DNA of 52,926 nt from a bacterium. Its GTDB lineage: Bacteria > Cyanobacteriota > Vampirovibrionia > Gastranaerophilales > Gastranaerophilaceae. The DNA lies in contig JAFUXT010000005.1 in NCBI GenBank assembly GCA_017470815.1, positions 1 through 52,926 of the forward strand. Direction: 5' to 3'. The notes under the pieces were generated by a model. The model worked only from the letters and a program-made list of their open reading frames with translations, searched no databases and had not been told where the DNA came from. Both the position numbers and the translations under genes were made by a program. Shown piece after piece: positions 374 through 51,134 of the stretch (the stretch's first letter is position 1; every line of letters starts with the position of its first letter).

Positions 374-500
374 TCTGTGCTTATTTTAGCATAAATAAAT
401 GGTGCGGTTATATCCTGAATACTGTTATATTTATAACTGCAAATCATAATATTTGTAAAATTAAAATGCGAATAAAATTATCCAATATGTTACATAAAAA

Positions 501-524
501 GTAACACAATTTATAATGTGTTAC
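501..524 (+). repeat. Recombination site A (inverted repeat, switch 1, distal end)
   Basis: 24 bp made of GTAACACA, an 8-bp centre ATTTATAA (509-516) and TGTGTTAC. It is the exact reverse complement of 732-755. The arms are inverted copies of each other around an asymmetric 8-bp centre, the architecture of a tyrosine recombinase crossover site. Upstream at 478-490 is TTATCCAATATGT, ten bases before the site; the same 13-mer occurs at the same distance before site D. Confidence 0.85.
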
Positions 525-731
525 GAGAAAGGATACATAACGGATGATAATTAAATTAATAAGGCTAAATTTGGGGGAATATAAGATTTATAAACACCAA
601 ATAATAAGAACATTAATTTATTCTCAAATTAAAGTGATAATTTATTTATATTGCATTGTAACAATTTCTTATAAATTGTAAAAATATGCCCAAATTCGCT
701 AAAGTTTTCAAAAAAAATGCCGATAAAACAT
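525..731. promoter_or_regulatory. Invertible segment 1 (predicted phase-variable promoter of the giant gene)
   Basis: 207 bp of AT-rich DNA between exact inverted repeats A and B. It holds no convincing gene: a 44-codon ORF from ATG 544 with a distant GAGAAAGGA is possible but looks accidental. The distance between crossover cores is 231 bp, 22 helical turns at 10.5 bp. The inner flank of A, read outward, contains TATGTATCCT just before the site, exactly as the inner flank of D does in segment 2. In segment 1 that end points away from the large gene and in segment 2 it points toward the target, so the two segments may be in opposite states here. I found no strong -35/-10 pair in either orientation. 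Inversion is inferred from repeat architecture and the nearby recombinase. Confidence 0.7.
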
Positions 732-755
732 GTAACACATTATAAATTGTGTTAC
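732..755 (-). repeat. Recombination site B (inverted repeat, switch 1, gene-proximal end)
   Basis: GTAACACA, centre TTATAAAT (740-747), TGTGTTAC: the exact reverse complement of 501-524. The ATG at 756 follows its last base directly. Because A and B are identical apart from orientation, inversion would rebuild the same site and leave everything from 756 rightward unchanged. Confidence 0.85.
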
Positions 756-3700
756 ATGGGTACAACAATGGCAGATCATATTTCATTAGGCAAAAACGGA
801 AATACAGGCAAAATTGACTTCAGCCGAATTAAGGCAGGAGTCAAAAAAGAAGAACTTGTCAAAAACGATGCACGTCTTGAATCTGTCTTTGATATGGTTG
901 ATGCTGATAATGACGGGACTCTTAACCGTAAAGAGTTAGATCATTTAGAACAATTAGTTTCTAATTTGGCAGGTGAAGACGGGAATTTAGAGAAAAAAGA
1001 AGTTAAAAATTTTTACGGGCAGAAACTCGGTCGTAAAGACAGAAAAGCATTACTTGAATTTTTAAATAAGCTTGACGGAGTTACTCCTGAAAATGTTGAA
1101 AAAGTTGAAACAAAACTTGTAGATGATAAGCAAGTTGAAGTAGTAACCTTTAAAGACGGTCATACTGAAGAATATTATCCAAACGGTCAAAAAATATCAG
1201 AAGTTGTTCAAGGTAATAAAAAGACTAAAACTACTGAATTAAATGGTGAAGTAACTTCAGAAGTTGTAACCGAAAACGAAGGTGAAGAAAATGAAATAAC
1301 ATCAACAACTTCAACAGTAAACGGTAAAAAACAGACAGTTATCAATAATAAAGGTGATAAAACTACTACAACAATAAATTACAACGGTGATAAAAAATCT
1401 GATGCCACAATAATAGGGGAAAATTCCAAAACAGTTATCACTTATGATGCTGAAGGTAATCCTGCAAAAGAAGTTGAAACAACAGGAACAACCGAAAAAA
1501 CATACATCTATAAAAACGGTCAGAAAATATTACAATCTGTCATTGAAAATAAAGGGTTAGAAGGTAAAGAAACAACAAAAATTTATGATACTGAAGGTGG
1601 TTACACTCAAACTCAAAATGTTGCTAACGGAAAAATTACAAAGGTTGTAGATAAGGAAGGCAGCTATACAGAAACTAAAGAAATGTCAAACGGCAAAATC
1701 ACAACCGTTGTGGACAAAGAAGGTAATGTAACATCTAATGTAAAAACTGAAACTGTAAACGGTCAGGAAGTTACTTTGCAATTAGACAAAGACGGCAACA
1801 TTCCGGGAGTAATTGTTCAAAATGGTGAAAGCCCTGCAGCTATTGCAAAAAAATTCGGTTGCAGTGTAGATGAATTAATGCGATTAAATGCAGACCAACT
1901 TAAAGGAAAAGGTAAAAATCAATATTTCGAAGTTGGTTCTGAAATAAAATTACCGAATACTGTTGGAATAGAAAAATTTGCAAAAGCACAAGAAGGCAGA
2001 AAACCTGCTGAAGTCGCAAAAGCAGAATATGCACGTGATGCAGAAATTCGCAGACAAAAAGCAGAAGCAGCAAAACAAGAAAGAGAATATTACCAAAAAC
2101 TCGGTGTTAAAAATTTCAATAATAAAGGACAAAAAGTTAAAGCCGACGGTTGGGGTAACAAAGAATTTGAAATTATCGGTGATGTCGGCTATGGTCGTCA
2201 GTTAGTAAAACGTGACGGAAAACTTTATACGAGATCACATGATGGAAAAATTCTACGTGAAGATTACTTGCAAGCACATAAAGCCTTTGTAAGTAAACCT
2301 AAAAATCAAAGAAATAATACTGCATCAGGAATTGAAGGTGTAACTTATGTAAAAGATAACAATGGTAAAGTTTGGTATTTTGATGAAAAAACCGGTAAAG
2401 CTATTGTAAAAGGTAATTACACTCAAATTGTTAAACAAGAATCCGCTTTCGTTGCAAATCAATTACATACCGCTGCTAAAGGTATGGGTACTGATGAAGA
2501 ACTTCTTGAAAAAGGAGTTAAAAACATCTATTCAAGAGATATTTTGCAAGGTGTAAATGCTGAATTAAGAACAAAAGATAGTGATTATGCAGGTGATGCA
2601 CAAACAATGCCCGTAGAAGCATTGATTTTAGATGAAATGAGTCATACTGCCGCAAGACCTTTATTTAAAACACTTATCAATAGTGGTACTATGACAACTC
2701 AAGAACAAGCACACACAGTAAAACGTGAAATTGAATACGAAGTTCATGGTGGTTTGACAGGTTATACTTCAACATCTGATTTAAACGAAATTATGCAACT
2801 TTGTTCTAATAGAGATTTGAGATTAGAAGTAGAAGCTCAATTCAAAAAAGATCACCCTGAACTTGCAGAAAATGACGGTTCTGTTGTTCGTTCATATATT
2901 GCAGGTGACGGTTGGAATGCCCAAGAAGTTGACCAGTTTGATGCAAATTGGGTTAAAACAGGAGCTTATCAAGAAGCAAGATACGTTTATCAAACAGATG
3001 AAAACGGCAATGTAGTATTAGATAAAAACGGTCAGCCAGTTGTAGTTATTGATGAAGGCGATCAAGCTCACAGAAATGGAGTCATTGGAAGATTAGTATT
3101 TGATTATCAAGATAAAGAAGCATTAAATAAAGGTTTGGATGCAGTTAATGAAAATCCAAACAGTTTTGATTATCAATATTTAGACCAAAGAGCCGGCGAA
3201 GAAATTGCAAAAGATCCGCAAGGTAAATATCAATCAAGATTTACTAATCAAGACAATGTTCAAAGATACCTCGCCGGATTCCATTCTGATGAAACAGGAA
3301 CAGTAGATGCCGGAAATGTTTCTGCAAGTAATACTTACCTATTTAAAGGTATAAAACCGGCAAGAGTACAAGCGGAAGAAGCATTATACAATGCTAAAAA
3401 CGGTGATTACAGTCAGACTTTTGACAGTATGGATTCTGAAACATATTCAGAAATGGCTGAACTCGTTGCGAACGGTGATATTAAAGGTGTCAAAAATATG
3501 ACTGACCTTTATAATAAAGCACTAAACGGTGCAACAACTCAAAATGATAAAACTAAAATTAAAGCCAATGCAATGCTTTCAGGTCAAGTTGATTTTACAG
3601 ATGAACAAATAACAGATTTTTGTGTTGAATTAATGCACTCTATTGATGCTAACAGAGGTCGTGGCGGTTCGACAGGTCATAGTGCAGGATATACGAATGA

Positions 3701-6700
3701 TGCAGATTATCAAACAGAACAATTGAAAGCTATTTTACAAAATAATCCACAAGTTATGGATGCAGTTAAAGCTCGTGTTGAAAAAGAAAACTTCTCTTAT
3801 ACCACTACTACGCAAACATTCACAGGGCCGGGACAACAACCAATAACAAATAATAGAACAGTAAATACTAAAGATTCATATATGCAACTTCTTGCAGATA
3901 CAAAAACTATCTCAAATGAAGAAATATTTTATGATGCTAACGGTAATAAAATTACTGATCCTCAACAAATTGCAGAAATTAAAAATGCAAATATGCAATC
4001 ATTAGAACAAATGCGTCAATATGTTGCAGAATTAGAAAGAGATTTCAAAAAAGGTATTGATGCCGAAGGAACTCTTTCAGATATGGCTAACGGTCTGTCA
4101 AGATATTCCGGTATTGGAACTGACAGGGATGATGTCGCAACAGAATATAGAAATGCAAAATTGATGTTGCAACAATTTGAGGCAGCAGCACAAGGCAAAT
4201 TGAGAGACAGTGATGGCAATGTGATTTCTGCTCAAGATTTGGCACAACAGATGTTAGATAAGCAAAATGCTTTAGCAGAAACTAATAGCGATTATAAACA
4301 GACTATTGCATACGGTAAAATGGGTATAGTTCTTGCTCCTGTTATTGTTGCAACAACAGTTGCATCAGGAGGTGCCGCAGCAGCAGGATGGGGTACTCTC
4401 GGTGTAGCAGCCGCAGGCGGTGTTGCAGCAGGTGCAACAACATACGGTGTTAATGCACTCGAATATAATACATCTTATACAGGTAATACTGCTGAGGCTC
4501 GTGAACAAAATTTGGAAGATAGTTTAGTCAATGGAGCTACAACTGCTATCGGTATAGGTCAAATGAAATATATCGGTGGTATGGCAAATAAAATGGGTAC
4601 AGTTGCAAGAACAGGTATAAGATTAGGTACAACTGTTGCGGCTGATACCGGTGTTGGTGCTGCTGCTGAATATGCAACAACAGGAAATGTTTCAGCTCAA
4701 GGCACTATGACAAATATGATAATGTCAGGTGTTGGTAATGTTATTGGAGCAAAATCTTTGGGCAAAAAACAACCGGCTCCAAATATGCACCCAAGAGATG
4801 GCGTTTATTTAACTCAAGATGCACCAATTACCGGCAGAAATGAAATTGTAGATGCTGAAGTTGCGAGAAATATTGATCAATCACATCTTAATGCTCGTGA
4901 CAGACAAATGATTGCAAGAGAAATGGAAGCACAAGGAACTCCAACACCTCAAGAATTAGATGCTTATGCAAAAGAACACGCATATCAAGCACCAACCGCA
5001 GAAGAAAGAGCAGCACTTGATGCTCATCAAGAACAAGTTCGTGCTGATTATTCAGATGCTCATAGAATTGAAAATAATGCAACTGTAATAGAACAAAAAG
5101 CTCCTGCAACACCTCTTAGTGCAGATGAAGCAGCAATAAAAGCTCTTGAAGATGAAGTAGGAGCATTAGATGGTCAAATAAAACAATTAAACAAACAACT
5201 TGTAGGAGCAAAAAGAGCAAATCAAATGGGTCGTAAAAATGGCGACACAATTAAAAAACTTGAATCCCAAATTGAGTCATTACAACAAAAACGAACCGCA
5301 AAAGCAGCAGAACTTGAAACTGCAAGAAAACCTGTTGAAGTAAAAGCGGATGATGTTAAACCGGAAGTAAAACCAAACGAAGAAACACCTGTAACAAGTC
5401 ATTCAGGAGAAGAAGCACCAAAAGTAAATGAAATTAAACCTGAAACTATTGCGAACGAAACTAATGCTATTCCTGAAACAGAAATACCTCCTCAACATCA
5501 ACTTCTATGGAAAAACTGCAAAGAAAGAATTGAAAAATTAACTCAAGAACTTTCTATGTCAAACATAATCAATCCTAAAGAACTTATTGCTCGCGGTAAA
5601 GAAATACTTTCTCATCTTAAAACTATTGCAGATAGTATAACAAATGTTTCGATAAAAGCAAAAATCCAAAAAATTGCAGCCAATCTTAAATCAATGCTTA
5701 CAACCAAAGCAACACCGCAAAATACATTCAAGCGTGTAACTACTGTGGAAGAAGCTAATAAATTATACGATAAAATGGTTACAAATCGTTGGATAGGAGA
5801 AGATGGAAATAATACTGATCTTGTATTTATAGGCACGGGTTGGTCTCAAGCAATGTACAAGAGTAAGAATTTCAAACAAGGTACTCCTTGGAAAATGCAC
5901 ATATATGCAGACAGTCCACAAGAATGGGCTAATGCCGCACAAGTAGCAATGCCATATTTAGAAAAAAATAAAGTAACATTTAAGACTGTTACCGATTTGG
6001 ATGAACATTTTAAAACATTAAGAGAATATCAAAATTCTGAAGGTTTCCATTCTCAAACAGGCAAAGCATTCACAGTATACTTTGAAAGTGAAGAAGAATT
6101 TTTGCGTGTTGCACAAGGTTTGGAAGCAAGATTTAAAGAGAGTGGCTTAAAATCATCAGGTACAGTAGCAAACGAGGCTCAAATCGGTGATAGCGGATTC
6201 TTGTCATACCGTCATGAAGGTGCAGAACGTGGCACAATGTATAAACCTGAAGGTGTTGAAGATCCATATTTGAAAAAATTTGGTTCTCAAGCCACACCTT
6301 CGCAAGCACAAGAAGTTTCAATTAATGAAATGCGTCAACCAACTCCACAAGAAAGAATGGAAATGGGGCAAATCAGTAATAATATAAACAGAGCAAAAAC
6401 ACCCGATGATATTGCAAAAGTTCAAAAATGGCTTGATAAAATGCCGGAATGCTCACAAAAATCTCGTTTACAAGCTCAATTAGAACAAAAAGCAAACACT
6501 ATAAGACCACAGCAAAATAATGCTTATTTTATAGATCTCGAAACAAATGAAGTTCAATTGGTCGAAACAGATGTTAAACTTCAAAAAGGTACAAGACAAA
6601 AAATAAATTCTTATGAATCAGTTAGACTTGGAGATCAAGTAGATATTAATTTTGCAGATTTTGAAGCGAAATTTAATGCAATGCGTGATGGAGATTCATT

Positions 6701-7796
6701 TATTATTGGTCGGGAAGTAAGCGGAATTAATGATGTAAGAATAAATAATGAATATGTATCAGGTCAACATTTAAAAGTTGAAAAAATTAACGGTGAAATT
6801 TATATCACTGATATGTCGAGAAATGGTACAACATTAAATTCAACAAAACCTGATTATGCTGCACAATATTCACCGAGATTACAAGAAAAATTTGCCAATG
6901 CAAATTACGGTGATTTTAGCAATATGATTGATGATAATTACAGAAACTTACGTCGTGCAAATTATACTTTGGAAGAAAGCGTAAGTGGTAATATTACTAA
7001 TGCAGATTTGGCGAATGATGCTAATGTCAATATATACGAAAGTGGCGGTTGGTTCTTTAGATACCAAAAAGGTCATAGACCTGTTGATGCATCAAGAGTT
7101 GCGGACAGAATTAGTTTAAATGTTGTTGCCGATAAAAATTTACTTGCTGAATTAGATAGATTATGTGCAACGGGAACTTATGTAAATTCAAACGGACAAA
7201 CAGTGAGAGTAAACATGCCGGATTGTACATATAAGACACCTCAATCTTTACAGGGTTACACGACTCGCCACGATCCTATAACAATGTATTTTGAACGTGA
7301 AGTTTCAGAAGATGTACAAAATGCCATTGCGGATATCGCCGGTAAATATGCAAGACAATCTTCAAATGGTAAATCTTTAATGAATGCACTTGAAGGTAAA
7401 CCATATATTGCTCACGAAGCATATACGTCACCACAGGAAGCTCAAGCATTATGGCACGAGGCACAAAGATTAAATCCTGATATGGCAAATGCAATAATTA
7501 AAGATGCCATACTTTTTGAAGATGTAGTAAATGTAAATCCTAATTTAGCAAGAACCATTTTAGAAGGCTATGGACTTGATGCCCAACACATAAATCAATA
7601 TATGAATAATCCTCAATCAGCACCAATAACGCTTGTAGGTGCAATGAAAAGAGACCCTAAACTTTCAAATATGATATTACACGATTTAAACAATAATTTA
7701 AAATATTGGAACTGTTCAACAGGGCAATATGCATCATGGAACAAATTGATTAATGAATATAAGTTAGCATATCCACAATATAGGATGGCGGGGTAA
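756..7796 (+). CDS. Giant multidomain protein: EF-hand, LysM, annexin-like motif, phosphothreonine-lyase-like region, FHA
   Basis: 2,346 residues from ATG 756. An in-frame ATG at 717 lies inside the invertible segment, so I prefer 756 or 768; none has a clear Shine-Dalgarno. Domains in 756-based numbering: EF-hand loop 49-60 (D-x-D-x-D-G...E); NGK/DKEG-type repeats about 140-330; LysM about 351-402; annexin-like KGMGTDEELL about 575; Gly/Ala-rich hydrophobic stretch 1189-1231; coiled coil 1456-1525; an OspF/SpvC/LanL-lyase-like region about 1677-1830 with K1713, H1715, K1743, R1756 and R1819; FHA about 1972-2042 with R1986, S2002, H2005 and NGT 2023-2025. The C-terminal 300 residues, including RHDPITMYF at 2171, are not recognised. 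No signal peptide is seen. LysM suggests wall contact. A pThr-binding FHA beside a possible pThr lyase suggests action on phosphoproteins, perhaps of a host. Those roles are inference. Confidence 0.85.
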   Translation: MGTTMADHISLGKNGNTGKIDFSRIKAGVKKEELVKNDARLESVFDMVDADNDGTLNRKELDHLEQLVSNLAGEDGNLEKKEVKNFYGQKLGRKDRKALLEFLNKLDGVTPENVEKVETKLVDDKQVEVVTFKDGHTEEYYPNGQKISEVVQGNKKTKTTELNGEVTSEVVTENEGEENEITSTTSTVNGKKQTVINNKGDKTTTTINYNGDKKSDATIIGENSKTVITYDAEGNPAKEVETTGTTEKTYIYKNGQKILQSVIENKGLEGKETTKIYDTEGGYTQTQNVANGKITKVVDKEGSYTETKEMSNGKITTVVDKEGNVTSNVKTETVNGQEVTLQLDKDGNIPGVIVQNGESPAAIAKKFGCSVDELMRLNADQLKGKGKNQYFEVGSEIKLPNTVGIEKFAKAQEGRKPAEVAKAEYARDAEIRRQKAEAAKQEREYYQKLGVKNFNNKGQKVKADGWGNKEFEIIGDVGYGRQLVKRDGKLYTRSHDGKILREDYLQAHKAFVSKPKNQRNNTASGIEGVTYVKDNNGKVWYFDEKTGKAIVKGNYTQIVKQESAFVANQLHTAAKGMGTDEELLEKGVKNIYSRDILQGVNAELRTKDSDYAGDAQTMPVEALILDEMSHTAARPLFKTLINSGTMTTQEQAHTVKREIEYEVHGGLTGYTSTSDLNEIMQLCSNRDLRLEVEAQFKKDHPELAENDGSVVRSYIAGDGWNAQEVDQFDANWVKTGAYQEARYVYQTDENGNVVLDKNGQPVVVIDEGDQAHRNGVIGRLVFDYQDKEALNKGLDAVNENPNSFDYQYLDQRAGEEIAKDPQGKYQSRFTNQDNVQRYLAGFHSDETGTVDAGNVSASNTYLFKGIKPARVQAEEALYNAKNGDYSQTFDSMDSETYSEMAELVANGDIKGVKNMTDLYNKALNGATTQNDKTKIKANAMLSGQVDFTDEQITDFCVELMHSIDANRGRGGSTGHSAGYTNDADYQTEQLKAILQNNPQVMDAVKARVEKENFSYTTTTQTFTGPGQQPITNNRTVNTKDSYMQLLADTKTISNEEIFYDANGNKITDPQQIAEIKNANMQSLEQMRQYVAELERDFKKGIDAEGTLSDMANGLSRYSGIGTDRDDVATEYRNAKLMLQQFEAAAQGKLRDSDGNVISAQDLAQQMLDKQNALAETNSDYKQTIAYGKMGIVLAPVIVATTVASGGAAAAGWGTLGVAAAGGVAAGATTYGVNALEYNTSYTGNTAEAREQNLEDSLVNGATTAIGIGQMKYIGGMANKMGTVARTGIRLGTTVAADTGVGAAAEYATTGNVSAQGTMTNMIMSGVGNVIGAKSLGKKQPAPNMHPRDGVYLTQDAPITGRNEIVDAEVARNIDQSHLNARDRQMIAREMEAQGTPTPQELDAYAKEHAYQAPTAEERAALDAHQEQVRADYSDAHRIENNATVIEQKAPATPLSADEAAIKALEDEVGALDGQIKQLNKQLVGAKRANQMGRKNGDTIKKLESQIESLQQKRTAKAAELETARKPVEVKADDVKPEVKPNEETPVTSHSGEEAPKVNEIKPETIANETNAIPETEIPPQHQLLWKNCKERIEKLTQELSMSNIINPKELIARGKEILSHLKTIADSITNVSIKAKIQKIAANLKSMLTTKATPQNTFKRVTTVEEANKLYDKMVTNRWIGEDGNNTDLVFIGTGWSQAMYKSKNFKQGTPWKMHIYADSPQEWANAAQVAMPYLEKNKVTFKTVTDLDEHFKTLREYQNSEGFHSQTGKAFTVYFESEEEFLRVAQGLEARFKESGLKSSGTVANEAQIGDSGFLSYRHEGAERGTMYKPEGVEDPYLKKFGSQATPSQAQEVSINEMRQPTPQERMEMGQISNNINRAKTPDDIAKVQKWLDKMPECSQKSRLQAQLEQKANTIRPQQNNAYFIDLETNEVQLVETDVKLQKGTRQKINSYESVRLGDQVDINFADFEAKFNAMRDGDSFIIGREVSGINDVRINNEYVSGQHLKVEKINGEIYITDMSRNGTTLNSTKPDYAAQYSPRLQEKFANANYGDFSNMIDDNYRNLRRANYTLEESVSGNITNADLANDANVNIYESGGWFFRYQKGHRPVDASRVADRISLNVVADKNLLAELDRLCATGTYVNSNGQTVRVNMPDCTYKTPQSLQGYTTRHDPITMYFEREVSEDVQNAIADIAGKYARQSSNGKSLMNALEGKPYIAHEAYTSPQEAQALWHEAQRLNPDMANAIIKDAILFEDVVNVNPNLARTILEGYGLDAQHINQYMNNPQSAPITLVGAMKRDPKLSNMILHDLNNNLKYWNCSTGQYASWNKLINEYKLAYPQYRMAG

Positions 7797-8074
7797 TAAT
7801 CTATCGTGAGTAAAATATAAAACATTGCTAAAATCCCTCTGCTTTATAAGTTAATTTTTAAGTATTAAAAAAAGGATGAGTACACTCTCCTGAACTTAAA
7901 CAAATCTTGATAGATTTCGATTTCGATATGCCTGAATGGATGTTTAAAAATGTAATATTTTCTAAAAATTTAATTATTTAGATAATTTCATTTTAATTAT
8001 GTTACGTTTTTAGACACATAATGAATGGTTTTGCCATGTGGAAGGTAATATAGACAAGCAAAAGGAGTGTGACT

Positions 8075-8620
8075 ATGGAATATGTAGAACCAATTAGAGA
8101 ACGTGAAAAAATTGAATCAGTTAAAAGGATTTTAAAATGTAGTGGAATGCGAGATTTTTTATTATTCCTTATGGGAATTAATAGTGGGTTGAGAATATCG
8201 GATATTCTTAAATTAAGAGTCTCAGATGTAAGAAATAAAGATTATATCGAAATCACAGAGCAAAAGACAGGCAAATATAAACGATTTCCAATCACAAATT
8301 CATTCAAAGATTACTTGAATGAATTTATTTTTAACAAATCTCCTGATGAGTGGTTATTTGCAAGTCAAAGAGGAGACAAACCAATAACAAGAATACAGGC
8401 ATACAGAATAATTAATCATGCCTGTCAGCAAGCCGGAATAACCTCGCACATCGGAACTCATACTTTGCGTAAAACTTTTGGATACCATTTTTATCAGGAA
8501 AAGAAAGATATTGCATTATTACAATGTATTTTTAATCATTCAGCCCCATCTGTGACTTTGAGATACATCGGAATAAATCAAGATATTATTGACTCAAGTC
8601 TCCATTCATTCGCATTATAA
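8075..8620 (+). CDS. Small tyrosine recombinase (catalytic domain only), predicted invertase
   Basis: 181 residues from ATG 8075, seven bases after AAAGGAG; an in-frame GTG at 8069 is less likely because it abuts that site. All tyrosine recombinase residues are visible: R40 in NSGLRISD, a Lys in the beta-hairpin (K64 or K67), H129-x-x-R132 in HTLR, H155, and nucleophile Y164 in TLRYIG. The usual 300-residue Xer/phage integrases carry an N-terminal SAM-like DNA-binding domain; it is missing here, as in the roughly 200-residue fimbrial phase-variation recombinases FimB/FimE. The gene lies between two pairs of inverted repeats with recombination-site architecture (501/732 and 8655/8812) and ends 34 bp before site C. 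I infer that it inverts both segments. No second recombinase or directionality factor is visible, so inversion may go both ways at similar rates. Confidence 0.9.
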   Translation: MEYVEPIREREKIESVKRILKCSGMRDFLLFLMGINSGLRISDILKLRVSDVRNKDYIEITEQKTGKYKRFPITNSFKDYLNEFIFNKSPDEWLFASQRGDKPITRIQAYRIINHACQQAGITSHIGTHTLRKTFGYHFYQEKKDIALLQCIFNHSAPSVTLRYIGINQDIIDSSLHSFAL

Positions 8621-8654
8621 AAACCTAAAAACCTCTCATATCAACACAAAACAA

Positions 8655-8678
8655 GTAACACAATTGTTATTGTGTTAC
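8655..8678 (+). repeat. Recombination site C (inverted repeat, switch 2, distal end)
   Basis: GTAACACA, centre ATTGTTAT (8663-8670), TGTGTTAC. It is the exact reverse complement of 8812-8835. The arms match sites A and B exactly, but the centre differs, which should prevent strand exchange between the two pairs. Confidence 0.85.
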
Positions 8679-8811
8679 ATATTTATAAAGTATTTTATTA
8701 TAAAATAATTGCTTTTTTATAATTTTTTGTAAAAAATCTTTACAATTAAGCAAAAATCCCCTTATTTATCAACATTTTTTATCCAAATTTATCCAATATG
8801 TATCCTGACAA
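8679..8811. promoter_or_regulatory. Invertible segment 2 (predicted phase-variable promoter of the protease locus)
   Basis: 133 bp of very AT-rich DNA between exact inverted repeats C and D, with no ORF. The core-to-core distance is 157 bp, close to 15 helical turns. The best promoter candidate pointing rightward is TTTACA at 8739-8744 with 17-18 bases to a poor -10 (TTATTT/TATTTA, 8762-8768). Near site D lies TTATCCAATATGT (8789-8801) followed by ATCCTGACAA and the site. The same element at the same spacing lies outside site A, and a similar one inside it, so it may bind the recombinase, an accessory protein or a regulator. Confidence 0.65.
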
Positions 8812-8835
8812 GTAACACAATAACAATTGTGTTAC
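8812..8835 (-). repeat. Recombination site D (inverted repeat, switch 2, gene-proximal end)
   Basis: GTAACACA, centre ATAACAAT (8820-8827), TGTGTTAC: the exact reverse complement of site C. It lies 34 bp before the start of the next gene. That gene's ribosome binding site (AAAGGA) is outside the segment, so inversion would alter transcription and not translation signals. Confidence 0.85.
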
Positions 8836-8869
8836 ATAAACAGATTACTAAAACAAAGAAAGGATTATT

Positions 8870-9217
8870 ATGGGTATTACTGTCGGTGATATTTATACAA
8901 GATTTCCACAATTTAAAGGCGAAGATATGGAAAAGCTTGTCGGGAGTTCAAATTTTAACGGCAGAACGGTAGTCTCGTTGAGTAAATTAGCATCATACAA
9001 CGGACAATACGCAAAAGATTTAAGCGTATTTGTTGCAGAAAAAGAAGGTGTTGATTACACAAAACTTTTGTCAGGAAGCAAAAGAGAAGAGACAACGAAA
9101 CTTGCAGGAATTAATGATGATAAGCAAGATTCACTTGCCTCAACAAATAAACCCCAAAATAATTCTATTCCTATGGGTGTGAGCGTTTTTAATATCCCAA
9201 AACCTGAGATGGGGTAG
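8870..9217 (+). CDS. Small protein of unknown function downstream of invertible segment 2
   Basis: 115 residues, starting MGITVGDIYTRFPQF, preceded by AAAGAAAGGA six bases before the ATG. I recognise no domain. The first 70 residues look folded and mixed alpha/beta; the last 40 are polar and low in complexity (Asn, Ser, Lys, Pro), with no signal peptide or membrane segment. It is the first gene after switch 2 and is followed after 126 bp by an EF-hand protease gene on the same strand with no obvious terminator between them, so both may be transcribed together. It could be a chaperone, inhibitor or substrate of the protease, but only its position suggests this. Confidence 0.7.
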   Translation: MGITVGDIYTRFPQFKGEDMEKLVGSSNFNGRTVVSLSKLASYNGQYAKDLSVFVAEKEGVDYTKLLSGSKREETTKLAGINDDKQDSLASTNKPQNNSIPMGVSVFNIPKPEMG

Positions 9218-9343
9218 CTGTAATTCGTCTTGCAATCCCAAAATCTATATAAACAAATAACACGATTAGCATTCGACTAAATACAACTAATAAGTGACTG
9301 TGCAAATCAAGCGAGAGATAAATTTTAAAATAAGGAGCAATAT

Positions 9344-10879
9344 ATGTTTAATTTAAATGCTTTATTGAAATTCATCAATGTTAATAACGATGGCTACATA
9401 CAAAAATCAGAAATTCAACAATTTTTAGGGACTCAAAAATCACCGAGTATTTTTAATGGTTATTTGAATTCAATATCAAATGATGTAGATAATAATACGT
9501 TCATAAACGATATGTTAAACATAATGCAAAAAGCAAAAGCAGAAAATAATCAAACACCTGAACTTGATTTTGCAGATGAAAATGTTGCAAACAAGTATGA
9601 ACAATTAGTTGCATCCGAAAATAGAGATAGTAATGGTTATTTTCCACATAGTAGTTGGGCTCCTGAGATAAAAGTTATTAAATCCATAGATGAAATACCA
9701 TTGGGCTCGCATAATGATATTAAAGATGCAAGAGGTTGTGATATTTCACAACTCGATTTATCCGAAGGTCAATTATTAAATTTATGTATTGATAAAACAA
9801 CCATTATGACACCTCAGCAGAAAGCCATTCTTGAACCTTATATGGAAAGCTGCAAAAATCCCGGTCTTGGCATTCGTCAATTGCATGAACAGGGATTTAC
9901 AGGAAAAGGTGTTAATATGGCAATTATAGACCAACCTTTAGGTATGCACCAAGAATATGCGGATAATCTTATTGGTCAAGTTCACGATATAAATGCCGAA
10001 GAGGTAGGTTGGAATGAGGCATCAATGCATGGAGCTGCGGTAACATCTATTGCCGTAGGGAAAAATATTGGTGTTGCACCAGATGCAGGGCTTCATTATT
10101 ACTCTGCTGTAATTATGTCAACCGACCCTGAGGATATAAAAGCATACAAAGAAAGAGTTCAACAAGAAATAGCAAAAAATAGTGATGATACTCATTATGT
10201 GGAATATTTACAGGGACAACTTAAGAATATAGAAGAACGTGGTGCTTGCTCTTCAAATCAACCGTATGTTGATGCTATTAATAAAGTTTTAGATGAAAAT
10301 GCAAAACTTCCTGAGAATGAACGAGTTTCTGTCATTTCAATCAGTTGGGGTTTTGATGAGTTCGCTCCGGGATATGAAGAACTGCAACAAGCATTACAAA
10401 GAGCAAAAGAACAGGGAGTATTTATTGTATCAACGGCACTTCAAGAACAATACGGAATGTCGACTTGTGGTGCAAATAGAAACCCGAAAGGTGACTTAGA
10501 AAATCCTGATAATTACGAAGCCGGAGCATTTTGGAAAGCCGGTTCTGAATCAGGGAATAGTTATATGGGTGATGCCGATAAATTATTGTTAGTTCCGATG
10601 GATCATAGAACTGTAGCCGATTTTACAGATGGAACTTCTTATCGTTATGAAGGAAATGATGGCGGAATGAGTTGGTCTACCCCATGGCTCGCAGGAATGT
10701 ATGTTCTTGCGAAACAAGCTGATCCGAATATTACACCTGATGATTTTTGGAAATACGCATTAGAAACCTCAAGTGAATGCAGAAATAACGATTCAGGAAC
10801 TTATGTTGGCAGAATGATAAATCCACAAGAATTAATACAAAAAATCCAAGAAAATATAACTATAAATAATGAAAAATAA
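9344..10879 (+). CDS. EF-hand subtilisin-like (S8 family) serine protease
   Basis: 511 residues with AAGGAG before the start. The N-terminus carries an EF-hand loop at 12-23 (N-x-N-x-D-G-x-I...E). The subtilase domain spans about 180-500: aspartate motif AIIDQP (D196), histidine motif MHGAAVTSIAVG (H229) and serine motif GGMSWSTPWLAG (S443), matching the D/H/S order of the S8 family although each motif departs from consensus (family H motif HGTHVAG, Ser motif GTSMATP). VISISWGF before the Ser motif fits the S8 core strand. No Sec signal peptide is visible, unusual for a subtilase, so export (if any) uses another route or the enzyme works inside the cell. The EF-hand links it to the EF-hand giant protein at 756; both lie behind predicted invertible promoters. 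Calcium control of activity is inference. Confidence 0.85.
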   Translation: MFNLNALLKFINVNNDGYIQKSEIQQFLGTQKSPSIFNGYLNSISNDVDNNTFINDMLNIMQKAKAENNQTPELDFADENVANKYEQLVASENRDSNGYFPHSSWAPEIKVIKSIDEIPLGSHNDIKDARGCDISQLDLSEGQLLNLCIDKTTIMTPQQKAILEPYMESCKNPGLGIRQLHEQGFTGKGVNMAIIDQPLGMHQEYADNLIGQVHDINAEEVGWNEASMHGAAVTSIAVGKNIGVAPDAGLHYYSAVIMSTDPEDIKAYKERVQQEIAKNSDDTHYVEYLQGQLKNIEERGACSSNQPYVDAINKVLDENAKLPENERVSVISISWGFDEFAPGYEELQQALQRAKEQGVFIVSTALQEQYGMSTCGANRNPKGDLENPDNYEAGAFWKAGSESGNSYMGDADKLLLVPMDHRTVADFTDGTSYRYEGNDGGMSWSTPWLAGMYVLAKQADPNITPDDFWKYALETSSECRNNDSGTYVGRMINPQELIQKIQENITINNEK

Positions 10880-10890
10880 AATTTTTATAT

Positions 10891-11307
10891 TTATATATCA
10901 ACTTTATAACCAAATCTTTGTCTGAATTTTTGCAGAGCAACTTCAACAAAAACTTTTTTATCTTCTGTAAGTTTTTTGTAATATCGTTCTGTGCGTTTTG
11001 GACAATCCTTTATCACCCAATTTCCACTTTTTTTAAGCTCTTTTATTGGGTATTCTGATTTATAATATTCGAGCATATCATCATCTACATAAGCAAAAAT
11101 CATTAATAAATTTTTTCGATCTATATCTGTATATTTGCTGCATATAAAATTGAAAAACTCCATTTTCTTTTGTTTTAATTCTTTTGCAGAAATATTATCA
11201 ATATTATATAATAGTGTTTCAAGATGTTCTTTGTCACGTCTTAACTCGTAGCCTTGCTCATCATTATTATTTTTGTTTCTTATTTGGTAAAAATAATAGT
11301 TATACAT
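10891..11307 (-). CDS. Hypothetical charged protein
   Basis: 138 residues, Lys/Glu/Tyr-rich and mostly helical in appearance, with AAGGATTTTGA directly before the ATG. No domain recognised, and no signal peptide or membrane segment. It converges on the protease gene with only 11 bp between the stops. A stem-loop (11371-11392) followed on this strand by a T-rich stretch lies upstream of its start and would insulate it from leftward transcription. It may be an accessory gene of the same island; nothing in the sequence defines its function. Confidence 0.65.
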   Translation of the reverse strand: MYNYYFYQIRNKNNNDEQGYELRRDKEHLETLLYNIDNISAKELKQKKMEFFNFICSKYTDIDRKNLLMIFAYVDDDMLEYYKSEYPIKELKKSGNWVIKDCPKRTERYYKKLTEDKKVFVEVALQKFRQRFGYKVDI

Positions 11308-11370
11308 TCAAAATCCTTTTTTAAATAATCTACTTTAATTATACAAAAATAATAAAAAAATAATCGAAAA

Positions 11371-11392
11371 AGTCGGGGAAATTTCCCCGACT
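11371..11392 (-). terminator. Stem-loop, terminator-like on the minus strand
   Basis: AGTCGGGG-AAATTT-CCCCGACT, an 8-bp perfect stem. On the minus strand it is followed by TTTTTCGATTATTTTTTT; on the plus strand no T-run follows. Confidence 0.5.
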
Positions 11393-11492
11393 AATTTGAC
11401 ATTATTTTTGTATTTCTAAAAAGAACGTTGCCGAAAATCTCAAACTGTCTGTCCGATTATCTCAAACTGAGTGTCCTTTTACAAGGACACTT

Positions 11493-11569
11493 GGTCGGAA
11501 GTGTTTAGTGTCATTGCGAGCCTGTAAAGGCGAAGCAATCCCGCTTTTGCCGATTTTGCGAGGTCGGAA
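11493..11569 (+). repeat. 77-bp direct repeat, copy 1
   Basis: Identical over 77 bp to 12580-12656. The core contains GTCATTGCGAGCC...GGCGAAGCAATCC, an inverted-repeat word of a type common between genes in many bacteria. Both copies are preceded by a hairpin ending in GGACA and followed by ATGTCC...TGTCCGATTT, so the similarity extends beyond the exact part. Confidence 0.85.
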
Positions 11570-11780
11570 GTTGCTTGACACAAAATGTCCAGAATGTCCG
11601 ATTTATGTTACAAAAATGTCCGCTCATTTGCACTTTTTGTTCAATTATTTGCACTCATAAGTATAAATAGACAGTTAAAATTGAAAAGATAATTTGTTCA
11701 ATACTAACTGATAATTAATTTATAGTAAGTTTATAATATTTTTGTTATTATCAAATTAACAAAAGGTATAATTTGATTAT

Positions 11781-12434
11781 ATGAACTATAAAGTTATAGA
11801 CAGAGAAGCATACTATCGAAAGGGAGTGTTCCGCCATTTCTCTGAAGATTGCAAGTGTTCAACATCCATGACCGCAAGAATTGATGTTACTAATCTTGTT
11901 AATTATTCCAAAGAATCAGGAACAAAGTTCTATATTAACTTCCTTTATATTTTATCTAAGGTACTTAATTCTCGTGAGGATTACAGGATGGGATATCTTT
12001 ACCAAACTGATGAACTAATCTGTTATGATGTAATCAATCCCACACAATACGTTTTTCATGAAGATACTGAAACTTGTACTCCTGTTTATACAAAATATGA
12101 TAATGATTATGAAAAGTTCTATGACAAGGCTTTAAGCGATATTGAAAATGCTAAAAAGACAAGAGAATATATGCTTGATATGGCAAACCATCCTAATTGG
12201 TTTGATGCATCATTTATACCTTGGCTCTCTTATGATGCTCTAAATATCGAATTACCTGACGGCCATTTGTTTTTTGCTCCAATTATTAATTGGGGAAAAT
12301 ACAGAGAAGAAAATGGAAAACTTGTTATGCCTGTAAGTGTTCGTTTGAATCATGCAATTGCAGATGGATATTTAGTTGCTAAGGTTTTTTGCCTCTTGGA
12401 GCAGGAAATTAATTTGTTTGTTAAAGGTTCATAA
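11781..12434 (+). CDS. Chloramphenicol acetyltransferase-like protein (CatA family)
   Basis: 217 residues, the normal length of trimeric CatA enzymes, which transfer acetyl from acetyl-CoA to chloramphenicol. The catalytic motif HHAxxDG is present as NHAIADGYL (H191, D195), and FDASFIPWLSYDALNI (141-156) matches the family's SxNPWxSF segment. The first His of the usual HH pair is Asn; the catalytic second His is kept. Family members also include streptogramin-unrelated CatA homologues without proven resistance activity, so drug resistance is likely but not certain. Identical 77-bp direct repeats 1,087 bp apart flank the gene, with no neighbour sharing its operon, which suggests movement as a cassette or homologous recombination between the repeats. 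The ribosome binding site is weak. Confidence 0.85.
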   Translation: MNYKVIDREAYYRKGVFRHFSEDCKCSTSMTARIDVTNLVNYSKESGTKFYINFLYILSKVLNSREDYRMGYLYQTDELICYDVINPTQYVFHEDTETCTPVYTKYDNDYEKFYDKALSDIENAKKTREYMLDMANHPNWFDASFIPWLSYDALNIELPDGHLFFAPIINWGKYREENGKLVMPVSVRLNHAIADGYLVAKVFCLLEQEINLFVKGS

Positions 12435-48317: not shown

Positions 48318-51134
48318 TTATTCTCCAACTGCTTGCGCACAATCAGAACATATACCGTTTGAATTAAGTTCACGATATTTCCAACAACGTGAGCATTTTT
48401 CGCCCTTTGCTTTTACGACCCAAACGGTGTAACCATCTTCACTGTATTCATTCAAGATTTCTTCAGACGGCTTTTCATCTGTCAAAGTTGCCTGTGAAAC
48501 GATATAAATGTCAGACAAATCGTTTTCGTTTGATTTTAATACGGAATTGTCTTCTGCTTTTATATAAACCCCGACTTCCAATGCACTTCCGACTTTTTTG
48601 TCTGCTCTTAACGGTTCAATGGCTCTTGTTACAACTTCTCTTGATTTCAGAATTTTTGCAAAATCATCTGAAAGTTGTTCATTATTCCATTGAGGGTGAA
48701 CTTCAGGGAAGTTTGCAAGTAAGATACTGATTAAACCACCTTTTTGCACTTCAGGAACACTTTGCCAAATATCTTCCGCCTGATGTGGCATTACAGGTGT
48801 CAAAATTCGTACAAGTGCCATGAGATTTTCGTACAAAACTGTCTGACATGCACGGCGGGAAAGAGATTTTTTGCCTGCAGTATATAATCTGTCTTTTACA
48901 ATATCAAGATAGAATGAACTTAAATCTACCGCAGCAAAATTTTGTAAGCATTGGAAATATTTGTAAAATTCATAACTTTCAAAACTTTGAGTTACTTCTT
49001 CAATTAATTTGTTCAATTTGTGTAATGCAAATTTATCAATCAATTTTAAATCATCATATTTTACATAATCATTTGCAGGGTCAAAATCGAATAAGTTACC
49101 GATTAAAAATCTTGCGGTATTTCTTGTTTTCTTAAATATTTCAACAAGTTGTCCGACAATGTTGTTACCTATTTTGATATCATTTTTGTAATCAACTGAT
49201 GCTGCCCAAAGTCTTAAAATATCGGCACCATAGTTTTTGATAATATCATCAGGGCGAATGTAGTTTCCTAATGATTTTGACATTTTTCTGCCGTCTTCAC
49301 CAAATACAAATCCATGGGTAAGAACTTGTTTATAAGGTGCTTTACCCTGAGTTGCAATAGAGGTTAAAAGAGAAGACTGGAACCAGCCTCTGTGCTGATC
49401 TGAACCTTCCAAATACATATCAACCGGTGTATGACCGAGTTCGTCTGCTCTTGCTTCTACAACCGCACTCCACGATACTCCTGAATCAAACCAAACATCC
49501 ATAATGTCTTTTTCTTTGCGGAAGTGAGTTTTTCCGCATTTAGGGCAAACAAATCCTGACGGCAAAAGTTCTTCTGCGCTATGATTTACCCATGCATCAG
49601 AACTTTCTTTTTCAAAGATATGTGCAACATTTTCAATAGTTTGGTCGTTGCAGATTACTTCTCCGCAGTCTTCGCAATAGAAAATCGGAATAGGTACGCC
49701 CCATGCTCTCTGACGGGAAATACACCAATCCGTTCTGCTTGCAACCATATTTCCTATACGACTTTCACCGCTTGCAGGAATCCATTTGACATCATGGATA
49801 GCGTCCATTGCTTGTTGTCTGAATTTATCAACTTTTACAAACCATTGCGGTGTTGCTCTGTAAATTACAGGGTGTTTACATCTCCAACAATGCGGATATG
49901 AGTGGCTGATTTCGTTTTGATAAACTAATGCTTTACAATTTTCCAACATATCAATTACCATGTCATTTCCTTTATAATAAGGAACACCGACAAGTTCAGG
50001 AATACCGACTTCATCTTTCCAGCATCCTGTTGCATCTAACGGTGAAAATACTTCAACACCGTATTTTACCCCAACTTCATAGTCCTCAAGACCATGCCCC
50101 GGAGCCGTGTGAACCAAACCTGTACCTGCATCAAGCGTAACATGTTCGCCTAAAATTATTTTTGATTTTCTGTCAACAAGCGGATGTTTTGTTTCCATAA
50201 GTTCAAAATCTTGTCCGATTGCAGTACCGAGAATTTTAATATCACTTTCTTCCCAGCCTACATCTGCTAAAAATGTGCCAAGCAAATCGGTTGCAGTTAC
50301 ATAAATGTCGCCTTTATAATTGAACAAAGTGTATTCAAATCTCGGGTGCATTGATATTGCAACATTTGACGGAATTGTCCATGGTGTTGTTGTCCAAATA
50401 ATTGCATAGACTTTCTTTCCTTGTGTATCAATCATATTTTTAATTTTCAACATTGATTCATCATCAAATTCAAATCTTACATAAATAGATTTTGAAGAAA
50501 TATCTGCATATTCAACTTCTGCTTCTGCAAGTGCCGTTTCGCAGGATGCACACCAATAAACAGGTTTCAAACCTTTTTCAATATAGCCTTTTTTATACAT
50601 TTCGCCAAAAACACGAACCTGTTGCGCTTCGTATTCAGGATTAATTGTCAAATAAGGATTTTCCCAATTACCTAATACACCAAGACGCTTAAATGCTGTT
50701 TCTTGCCCAATTAAACTTTTTGCAGCATATTCACGGCATTTTTGTCTTAACTCGCCTTCTGTTATGGAATGACGACCGCCTTTTATATTTTTCACAACGG
50801 CATTTTCAATAGGCAAGCCGTGTGCATCATAACCGGGAACATATGGAGCATAAAAGCCTTTCATCGTTTTATACTTAATCAGAATATCTTTCAAAATTTT
50901 ATTCAAAGCCGTACCGACATGAATTTTTTCCGAACTTAAATATGGCGGACCGTCATGTAAAACAAATGAATTTGTTTTATCACGATTAGAAGTCATTTTT
51001 TCATAAATCTTATTTTCTTCCCAAAATTGTTGAATTTGCGGTTCTCTTTGAGTTGCATTTGCTCTCATTGCCAAAGTGGTTTGAGGCAAATTAAGGGTAT
51101 CTTTGTACTGTTTTTGTTCTGTTGTTTCAGTCAT
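48318..51134 (-). CDS. ileS: Isoleucyl-tRNA synthetase
   Basis: 938 residues, normal for bacterial IleRS. KMSKS is intact (about 617-621), the editing domain is present (about 190-390), and the C-terminal zinc region is CSRCWKYRELNSNGICSDC. Charges tRNA-Ile with Ile. The class I HIGH motif is changed: EKIHVGTALNK instead of DIHIGHALNK, so the second His is Thr75. The ATG at 51134 follows the symporter stop directly. Confidence 0.95.
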   Translation of the reverse strand: MTETTEQKQYKDTLNLPQTTLAMRANATQREPQIQQFWEENKIYEKMTSNRDKTNSFVLHDGPPYLSSEKIHVGTALNKILKDILIKYKTMKGFYAPYVPGYDAHGLPIENAVVKNIKGGRHSITEGELRQKCREYAAKSLIGQETAFKRLGVLGNWENPYLTINPEYEAQQVRVFGEMYKKGYIEKGLKPVYWCASCETALAEAEVEYADISSKSIYVRFEFDDESMLKIKNMIDTQGKKVYAIIWTTTPWTIPSNVAISMHPRFEYTLFNYKGDIYVTATDLLGTFLADVGWEESDIKILGTAIGQDFELMETKHPLVDRKSKIILGEHVTLDAGTGLVHTAPGHGLEDYEVGVKYGVEVFSPLDATGCWKDEVGIPELVGVPYYKGNDMVIDMLENCKALVYQNEISHSYPHCWRCKHPVIYRATPQWFVKVDKFRQQAMDAIHDVKWIPASGESRIGNMVASRTDWCISRQRAWGVPIPIFYCEDCGEVICNDQTIENVAHIFEKESSDAWVNHSAEELLPSGFVCPKCGKTHFRKEKDIMDVWFDSGVSWSAVVEARADELGHTPVDMYLEGSDQHRGWFQSSLLTSIATQGKAPYKQVLTHGFVFGEDGRKMSKSLGNYIRPDDIIKNYGADILRLWAASVDYKNDIKIGNNIVGQLVEIFKKTRNTARFLIGNLFDFDPANDYVKYDDLKLIDKFALHKLNKLIEEVTQSFESYEFYKYFQCLQNFAAVDLSSFYLDIVKDRLYTAGKKSLSRRACQTVLYENLMALVRILTPVMPHQAEDIWQSVPEVQKGGLISILLANFPEVHPQWNNEQLSDDFAKILKSREVVTRAIEPLRADKKVGSALEVGVYIKAEDNSVLKSNENDLSDIYIVSQATLTDEKPSEEILNEYSEDGYTVWVVKAKGEKCSRCWKYRELNSNGICSDCAQAVGE

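Follow-up and report, generated by a model that had tools for sequence, protein, structure and literature searches.

Can one site-specific recombinase flip two separate promoters by way of paired sites that share their arms and differ in their centres? The question is raised by a locus from the Gastranaerophilales, largely uncultured gut and rumen relatives of cyanobacteria. The DNA analysed, here called the window, is the whole of contig C76 (JAFUXT010000005.1; 52,926 nucleotides) in a genome of 2.24 Mb and 83 contigs. In the window two pairs of inverted sites bound short intergenic segments 5' of + strand open reading frames (ORFs), and a short tyrosine recombinase is encoded at 8069-8620. 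We argue, from comparison with related loci, that this enzyme probably inverts both segments, turning a sigma28-like promoter in segment 1 toward or away from the large gene that starts at 756. Handles beginning with L, G and C denote loci, genomes and contigs, win1 and win2 are window segments 1 and 2, and G000 is the source genome. The features on which the argument depends are the following (bp, base pairs; aa, amino acids).

480..500, + strand: outer flank ATCCAATATGTTACATAAAAA, adjoining the gene-distal site of pair 1
501..524, + strand: site 1L, GTAACACAATTTATAATGTGTTAC (pattern search; exact arms)
525..731, unstranded: predicted invertible segment 1, 207 bp, 23% GC (from the sites and comparison with L060)
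700..726, + strand: sigma28-like promoter sequence TAAAGTTT-N11-GCCGATAA, matching at all 16 specified bases and directed at the gene that starts at 756 (predicted ON state)
732..755, + strand: site 1R, exact reverse complement of 1L (pattern search)
756..7796, + strand: large gene whose product has 2,346 aa when counted from the ATG at 756 (the ORF list gives 717 as its start), likely target of switch 1
8069..8620, + strand: short tyrosine recombinase of 183 aa with no more than the catalytic domain (PF00589); likely the invertase
8655..8678, + strand: site 2L, GTAACACAATTGTTATTGTGTTAC (pattern search)
8679..8811, unstranded: predicted invertible segment 2, 133 bp, 17% GC, with no clear sigma28-like promoter
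8812..8835, + strand: site 2R, exact reverse complement of 2L (pattern search)

Inverted site pairs in the window and the genome

Four exact GTAACACA-N8-TGTGTTAC sites, arms plus centre, are present in the window and form two inverted pairs, each site being the exact reverse complement of its partner; in this the preliminary description of the stretch was right in coordinates, arms and pairing alike. It was also right that the pairs lie just 5' of genes, as the ATG at 756 touches site 1R (732-755) and the ATG at 8870 lies 35 bp past 8835, the end of site 2R, and that the window holds no further copies: a fifth match to the arm pattern, at 50957, appears only with three arm mismatches and is unremarkable. 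When up to three arm mismatches are allowed, the window contains five matches, versus a mean of 0.28 in shuffled windows. A search of the window for exact inverted repeats of at least 15 bp spaced within 1 kb recovered the two pairs only, and ten shuffles of the window together gave four such repeats, the longest of 16 bp. Chance palindromes are ruled out by these two sets of counts.

Recognition sites are common to several loci of the genome, namely the two window pairs and an imperfect third on contig C51 (35461-35484 and 35661-35684), with one arm mismatch in one site, two in the other, and yet another core. This was the sole further pair in the genome in a pattern search allowing up to two mismatches, for which a control pattern gave one match per direction. 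When loci are compared, the stretch that varies is in most cases 4 bp long and is set within longer arms, GTAACANAAT-NNNN-ATTNTGTTAC; the earlier designation of an 8-bp core was therefore overstated.

A short tyrosine recombinase that accompanies the sites

The recombinase gene, which had gone unmentioned in the preliminary description, ends 34 bp before pair 2. Its product matches PF00589 (3.2e-27) and PHROG 216, 'integrase', and its PDB matches are of Xer type (XerC-like, XerH, XerA, XerD) and cover the span of the catalytic domain only. In an alignment of 25 related recombinases, from which L058 (identical) and L082 (with stops) were excluded, the R, K, HxxR, H and Y columns are invariant in all 25, and we take these to be the catalytic residues. 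A serine invertase of the Hin type is ruled out by the assignment to PF00589, and Xer/dif proper by the lack of an N-terminal domain and by the presence of four window sites instead of a single dif. The C51 pair is immediately preceded by the gene of a 76% identical paralogue (C51:34805). No comparable pair was found in the 3.5-kb loci of three other, more distant paralogues (55, 54 and 44%; C51:32808, C41 and C5).

Within the genus, a recombinase of at least 66% identity is found in five of 46 genomes (G000, G001, G004, G020 and G036), and a complete pair, defined by the arm pattern with at most one mismatch, in exactly those five; G023 and G034 have one site each and no recombinase of at least 66% identity. 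An exception to the rule is G006, whose pair came to light with a wider pattern and is taken up below. The association extends to more distant relatives, mostly from Firmicutes and prophages. Among 83 such loci, a site built on the same plan (GTAACANAAT-NNNN-ATTNTGTTAC, or GAAAC arms, with up to two mismatches) lies within 500 bp 5' of the recombinase in 19; all 19 belong to a set of 75 loci, the other eight being Gastranaerophilales or unlabelled metagenome-assembled genomes (0 of 8). These upstream sites represent 18 distinct contexts, L076 and L139 being identical there. For the 75 loci, the 19 sites fall in 36.9 kb of upstream zones, versus 14 sites in 1,036 kb elsewhere, and six of those 14 lie 513-655 bp 5' of the recombinase.

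At several of these Firmicutes and prophage-related loci (L076, L092, L098, L099, L108, L139, L142, L143 and others) a single site lies 160-655 bp 5' of the recombinase, and no partner site was found nearby. Attachment or resolution sites are candidate roles for such single sites.

Evidence for inversion between relatives

Loci L082 and L063 carry homologous genes and have collinear outer flanks, with the 790-bp segment between the flanks in opposite orientation (81%) and the switch-over located at the sites. A second comparison involves switch 1 itself. L060 carries the same gene as win1, and its flanks are collinear with those of win1 (right, 81% over 324 bp; left, 90% over 51 bp), with the promoter module in opposite orientation (30 bp at 87%); module scores are 40-69 at the gene-distal end versus 17-21 at the other end. 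The preliminary description had named a single orientation, in deep reads of many samples and in relatives, as telling against inversion; between relatives, opposite orientations were found in L082/L063 and, for the promoter module, in win1/L060. At nine loci the recombinase gene lies inside the segment, and, with the gene side set by hand from the ORF table, it faces the gene in five (L061, L065, L066, L082 and L138) and points away in four (L060, L063, L071 and L073).

A different kind of evidence comes from G006, where contigs C55 and C56 are identical over their first 26 bp, composed of the site plus two bases (C55:3-26 and C56:3-26; L291-L294), and then diverge. C56 runs into the switch 1 gene and aligns to the window from 730 in pieces of 82-87%, C55 carries the gene-distal flank motif ATCCAAAACGTTACATTTTTA, and the segment between the partner sites was not found in the assembly. 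Contig breaks at both partner sites would be the assembler output expected if both orientations were present in the reads, although such breaks may have other causes. As a comparison between genomes, these results strongly support promoter inversion by this recombinase family.

Predicted promoters within the segments

The promoter-like sequence in segment 1 matches TAAAGTTT-N11-GCCGATAA, which we take to be the consensus of sigma28 (FliA) promoters, without a mismatch. When segments are read with the gene to the right, a module with this sequence is common to many of them. We compared 18 segments, three from the source genome and 15 from fetched loci (not included are L058, which duplicates pair 2, L075, L062 and L074 with their single sites, and the G-handle loci except C51), and 13 of them score at least 13 of 16 for the sigma28-like pattern with a spacer of 10-12 allowed. 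Shuffles of the 13 scoring segments reach their score in 0 to 3% of cases. The promoter points toward the gene in six segments (win1, L061, L065, L067, L082 and L138) and away from it in seven (C51, L063, L064, L069a, L070, L071 and L073). By eye, the promoter also faces the gene in L012, which has the gene type of switch 1, and in L011, which has that of L061 and L138; each of these loci has one site. The earlier proposal of two flipped promoters consequently fares unevenly, segment 1 having a perfect sigma28-like match and segment 2 no clear match. An outer flank resembling ATCCAATATGTTACATAAAAA occurs in most of the 18 loci compared, the exceptions being pair 2, L059, L069b and L070, and is possibly an extra recombinase half-site.

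The gene fliA encodes sigma28 (PMC3535392). The source genome contains a sigma factor of the FliA/WhiG class (G000:C9:16930-17592; 235.6 bits versus a cut-off of 189.6), one of eight sigma matches.

Matching of centres within pairs

If strands are exchanged in the variable centre, partners would be expected to agree there. A core-blind scan, which used the arms alone with up to two arm mismatches, yielded 64 non-redundant adjacent pairs in the fetched loci, with near-identical loci such as L003 and L058 entering separately. The central 4 bp are identical in 62 of the 64, versus a mean of 4.9 and a maximum of 14 in 5,000 permutation runs; G326 supplies 25 of the 64 pairs, drawn from among the sites listed for that genome, and 24 of these agree. 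Arms within a pair differ at several positions while the centres match. Two pairs break the rule, L205 (4 of 4 positions differ) and L249 (one differs).

L205 (G359:C4) is a pair around a recombinase whose left centre is that of the L261 pair and whose right centre is that of the L216 pair, and the locus looks as if it were a mixture of the two.

Within-pair identity fits the strand-exchange prediction, and may follow simply from repeated strand exchange; selection for differences between pairs is not thereby demonstrated. The three pairs of the source genome have three different cores, an outcome that by our rough estimate would also be expected by chance. Cores recur between loci in G326 (ACTC, ACCT, ACCC and others), G185 and G128, and since a few cores are reused at many loci there, numerous switches can evidently exist side by side without each having its own core. 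Such reuse weakens the view that differences between cores are maintained in general as insulation between pairs. Pair-coded insulation is compatible with the source genome but appears not to be general in the family. The pair code first proposed for the window is thus supported in part: in relatives, where a search had been suggested, cores agree within pairs, but the three genomes in which several loci share them give no backing to cores as a general insulating address.

Genomes with many switches

Sites with at most one mismatch were found in 46 of 383 genomes of the bacterial family, and the reversed control pattern gave none among the counts listed. Relatives range from one to more than 20 site pairs per genome, and in another genus some genomes are rich in sites (56 in G326, 31 in G185 and 29 in G128). 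G326 has four recombinases of this family at E <= 1e-40; with 56 sites to four recombinases, action at a distance is likely to be usual there. In G326, 12 of 25 short inverted pairs have a prepilin-like gene start within 350 bp, among the matches listed. By eye, many of the G326 segments carry an extended -10-like sequence, TGGTATAAT, at one end, and not a sigma28-like sequence. With gene sides set by hand, L256 is opposite in orientation to L240 and L255; by alignment only, L236 and L242 are opposite to a group of 157-bp segments, and the other alignable segments agree. G326 likely has a multi-locus phase-variation system for pilin-like proteins.

Candidate switches in this genome number more than 20 and are spread over many contigs (L214 and L225-L258).

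Proposed mechanism and alternatives

In the mechanism we propose, the shared arms, GTAACACAAT, would be where the recombinase binds, and strand exchange would take place in the variable centre, where the partners would have to match. As matching sites lie inverted within a few hundred bases of one another, the outcome would be inversion. Segment 1 as assembled, with its promoter facing the gene at 756, would be the ON state and the flipped segment the OFF state, and the FliA/WhiG-class sigma factor of the genome would presumably read this promoter. Pair 1 would be acted on in trans, either by the 8069-8620 enzyme or by its C51 paralogue; that one enzyme serves both window pairs is plausible. 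In the source organism, where activity is likewise presumed, the differing cores may prevent recombination between pairs.

Several observations weigh against this account. No clear sigma28-like promoter was found in win2, L059, L060, L066 or L069b, and the gene side of L067 was assumed, the contig ending there. The sigma28-like pattern with at most three mismatches is not enriched genome-wide (48 and 70 matches versus 54 and 57 for the control), so that the promoter claim draws on the zero-mismatch match and on recurrence in other segments. In spite of the FliA/WhiG-class sigma factor, no flagellin match was found in the source genome. The module match between win1 and L060 spans only 30 bp, and C55 of G006, apart from its flank motif, does not align with the left flank in either the window or L060. 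The two pairs with unlike centres, the reuse of cores between loci, the unchanged orientation of segment 2 in L058 and the two stops in the L082 recombinase also count against it. Finally, G006 has a pair, yet no recombinase at E <= 1e-40 was found in its assembly; our guess is that the gene is located in the absent segment, as it is in L060.

The alternative that survives best is that the 8069-8620 enzyme flips pair 2 only, pair 1 being an orphan that has lost its own recombinase and is fixed with the promoter facing the gene. This we consider unlikely, although it draws on real features of the locus: in L060, with the same gene as switch 1, the recombinase is inside the segment; the window recombinase closest to pair 1 is encoded 7.3 kb to its right, and the contig begins 500 bp to the left of the site; and L012, again with the same gene, has one site only and a promoter facing the gene. 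Against it, pair 1 is still exact over 24 bp and has the arms of pair 2, whereas G034 (the genome of L012) and G023 have one site only, and the numbers of sites and recombinases in G326 suggest that distant action is usual.

It is very improbable that both pairs are static relics that are merely inherited and no longer invert. Segment 2 has the same orientation in L058, which is 99.8% identical over 5,559 bp, and the recombinase ORF of L082 is interrupted by two stops, both of which would suit this reading; however, centres are kept in 62 of 64 pairs while arms drift, homologous loci differ in orientation, and the G006 contigs end at both sites.

L058 is the 5,559-bp contig JAFUEV010000043.1, which matches window positions 6346-11904, has the same length and sites as G378:C81 and is binned in another genus, possibly through misbinning.

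About as improbable is the view of the sites as terminal inverted repeats of a small mobile element resembling a miniature inverted-repeat transposable element. The many G326 segments that are alike, equal in length (157 bp) and share the same ends would suit such an element, but inspection of the window sites by eye showed no target-site duplication, the outer flanks of each pair being different, and the idea was rejected on that count; moreover, the enzyme is a tyrosine recombinase, the repeat centre differs between loci and matches within pairs, and one segment is inverted in place (L082/L063). The least credible alternative is that the palindromes are repressor operators, for although each site is a near-perfect palindrome and a segment 1 site lies beside promoter-like sequence, the non-palindromic centre matches between partners, inversion occurs exactly at the sites, and the sites track the recombinase.

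Beyond the inversion of the two window segments, a broader reading can be put forward tentatively, as somewhat less than an even prospect: a lineage-wide code in the Gastranaerophilales in which one recombinase family flips from one to more than 20 promoters per genome through shared arms, the 4-bp centre choosing the partner, and in which many of the switches that govern giant modular proteins, some of them phage-borne, are read by an alternative FliA/WhiG sigma factor not tied to flagellin.

Target genes and their surroundings

In the product of the gene at 756..7796, LysM, RamC_N and FHA exceed the Pfam cut-off and EF-hand matches fall below it. Past switch 2 the following genes are encountered.

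8870..9217, + strand: 115-aa ORF without a Pfam match, first gene past switch 2
9344..10879, + strand: 511-aa subtilase-family (PF00082) protein, second gene past switch 2

Ten large target proteins were scanned (those of the window, L060, L061, L064, L066, L138, L070, L082, L069 and C51). Above the cut-off, FHA and LysM were each found in four of them, RamC_N in three and DnaJ in a single one, and EF-hand below the cut-off in three of the ten. Nothing exceeded the Pfam cut-off in L061, L138, L082, L069 and C51, the last having a sub-threshold calpain match.

Some relatives of the switch appear to be phage-borne. The viral contig L138 (IMGVR_UViG_3300011989_000363) carries, besides a tail sheath gene, a recombinase, a site pair, a 16/16 sigma28-like promoter and a 2,397-aa gene with a start similar to that of the L061 gene, and the C51 pair is near terminase and endolysin genes. 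Pfam matches were obtained for six of ten window ORFs lying outside the switches, and no phage family is among them. An ORF 3' of switch 2 (11781-12434) matches the chloramphenicol acetyltransferase family (PF00302, 2e-46).

Relation to known systems

The layout invites comparison with Hin/fljBA of Salmonella, in which a serine recombinase is encoded inside the invertible segment and the fljB promoter is of the flagellar sigma28 type; an invertible sigma28-type promoter is common to both, and the class of enzyme and, in the window, the position of its gene are not. Xer/dif offers homology in the catalytic domain and a short palindromic site with a variable centre, but the enzymes here have 181-183 aa and only the catalytic part, and their sites are arranged as inverted pairs, which are numerous in the genomes of some relatives.

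In Bacteroides fragilis the tyrosine recombinase BF2766/Tsr19 flips a near and a distant promoter (PMC4747536), and as in the window its gene lies beside one of two invertible promoters. Tsr19 belongs to another phylum, has other targets and was proven with mutants, whereas the present system is deduced by comparison and has pair-specific centres and a sigma28-like promoter. The master invertases Mpi of B. fragilis and RecV of Clostridioides difficile show that one enzyme can serve several scattered promoter switches (PMC4747536, PMC5903667). Mpi, however, is a serine recombinase, and the C. difficile repeats are mostly unrelated, those of Cdi2 and Cdi5 being identical and the remainder reported as unrelated (PMC5903667), whereas the sites described here share arms. 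In Providencia stuartii a fimbrial segment with 14-bp imperfect repeats encloses its recombinase (PMC5903667), much as segments of about 0.7-0.8 kb do in the nine loci named above; the target there is fimbrial, and the window recombinase lies outside both segments.

A scheme that sorts invertons by repeat motif does not use the word Melainabacteria in its main text (PMC11892184). No description of phase variation or inversion in Gastranaerophilales, Melainabacteria or Vampirovibrionia was found among the papers listed in literature searches, which is weak evidence of absence. The preliminary claim of an undescribed layout is in keeping with this for the lineage, and a layout of one enzyme and two promoters was already known from B. 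fragilis (PMC4747536).

The naturally varied, pair-matched 4-bp centres would be ready-made sites for testing how far the core limits the choice of partner. If the proposed account is correct, the Gastranaerophilales would have a shared-arm inversion system that determines whether very large proteins are expressed; many prepilin-like proteins of one genus would come under it as well.

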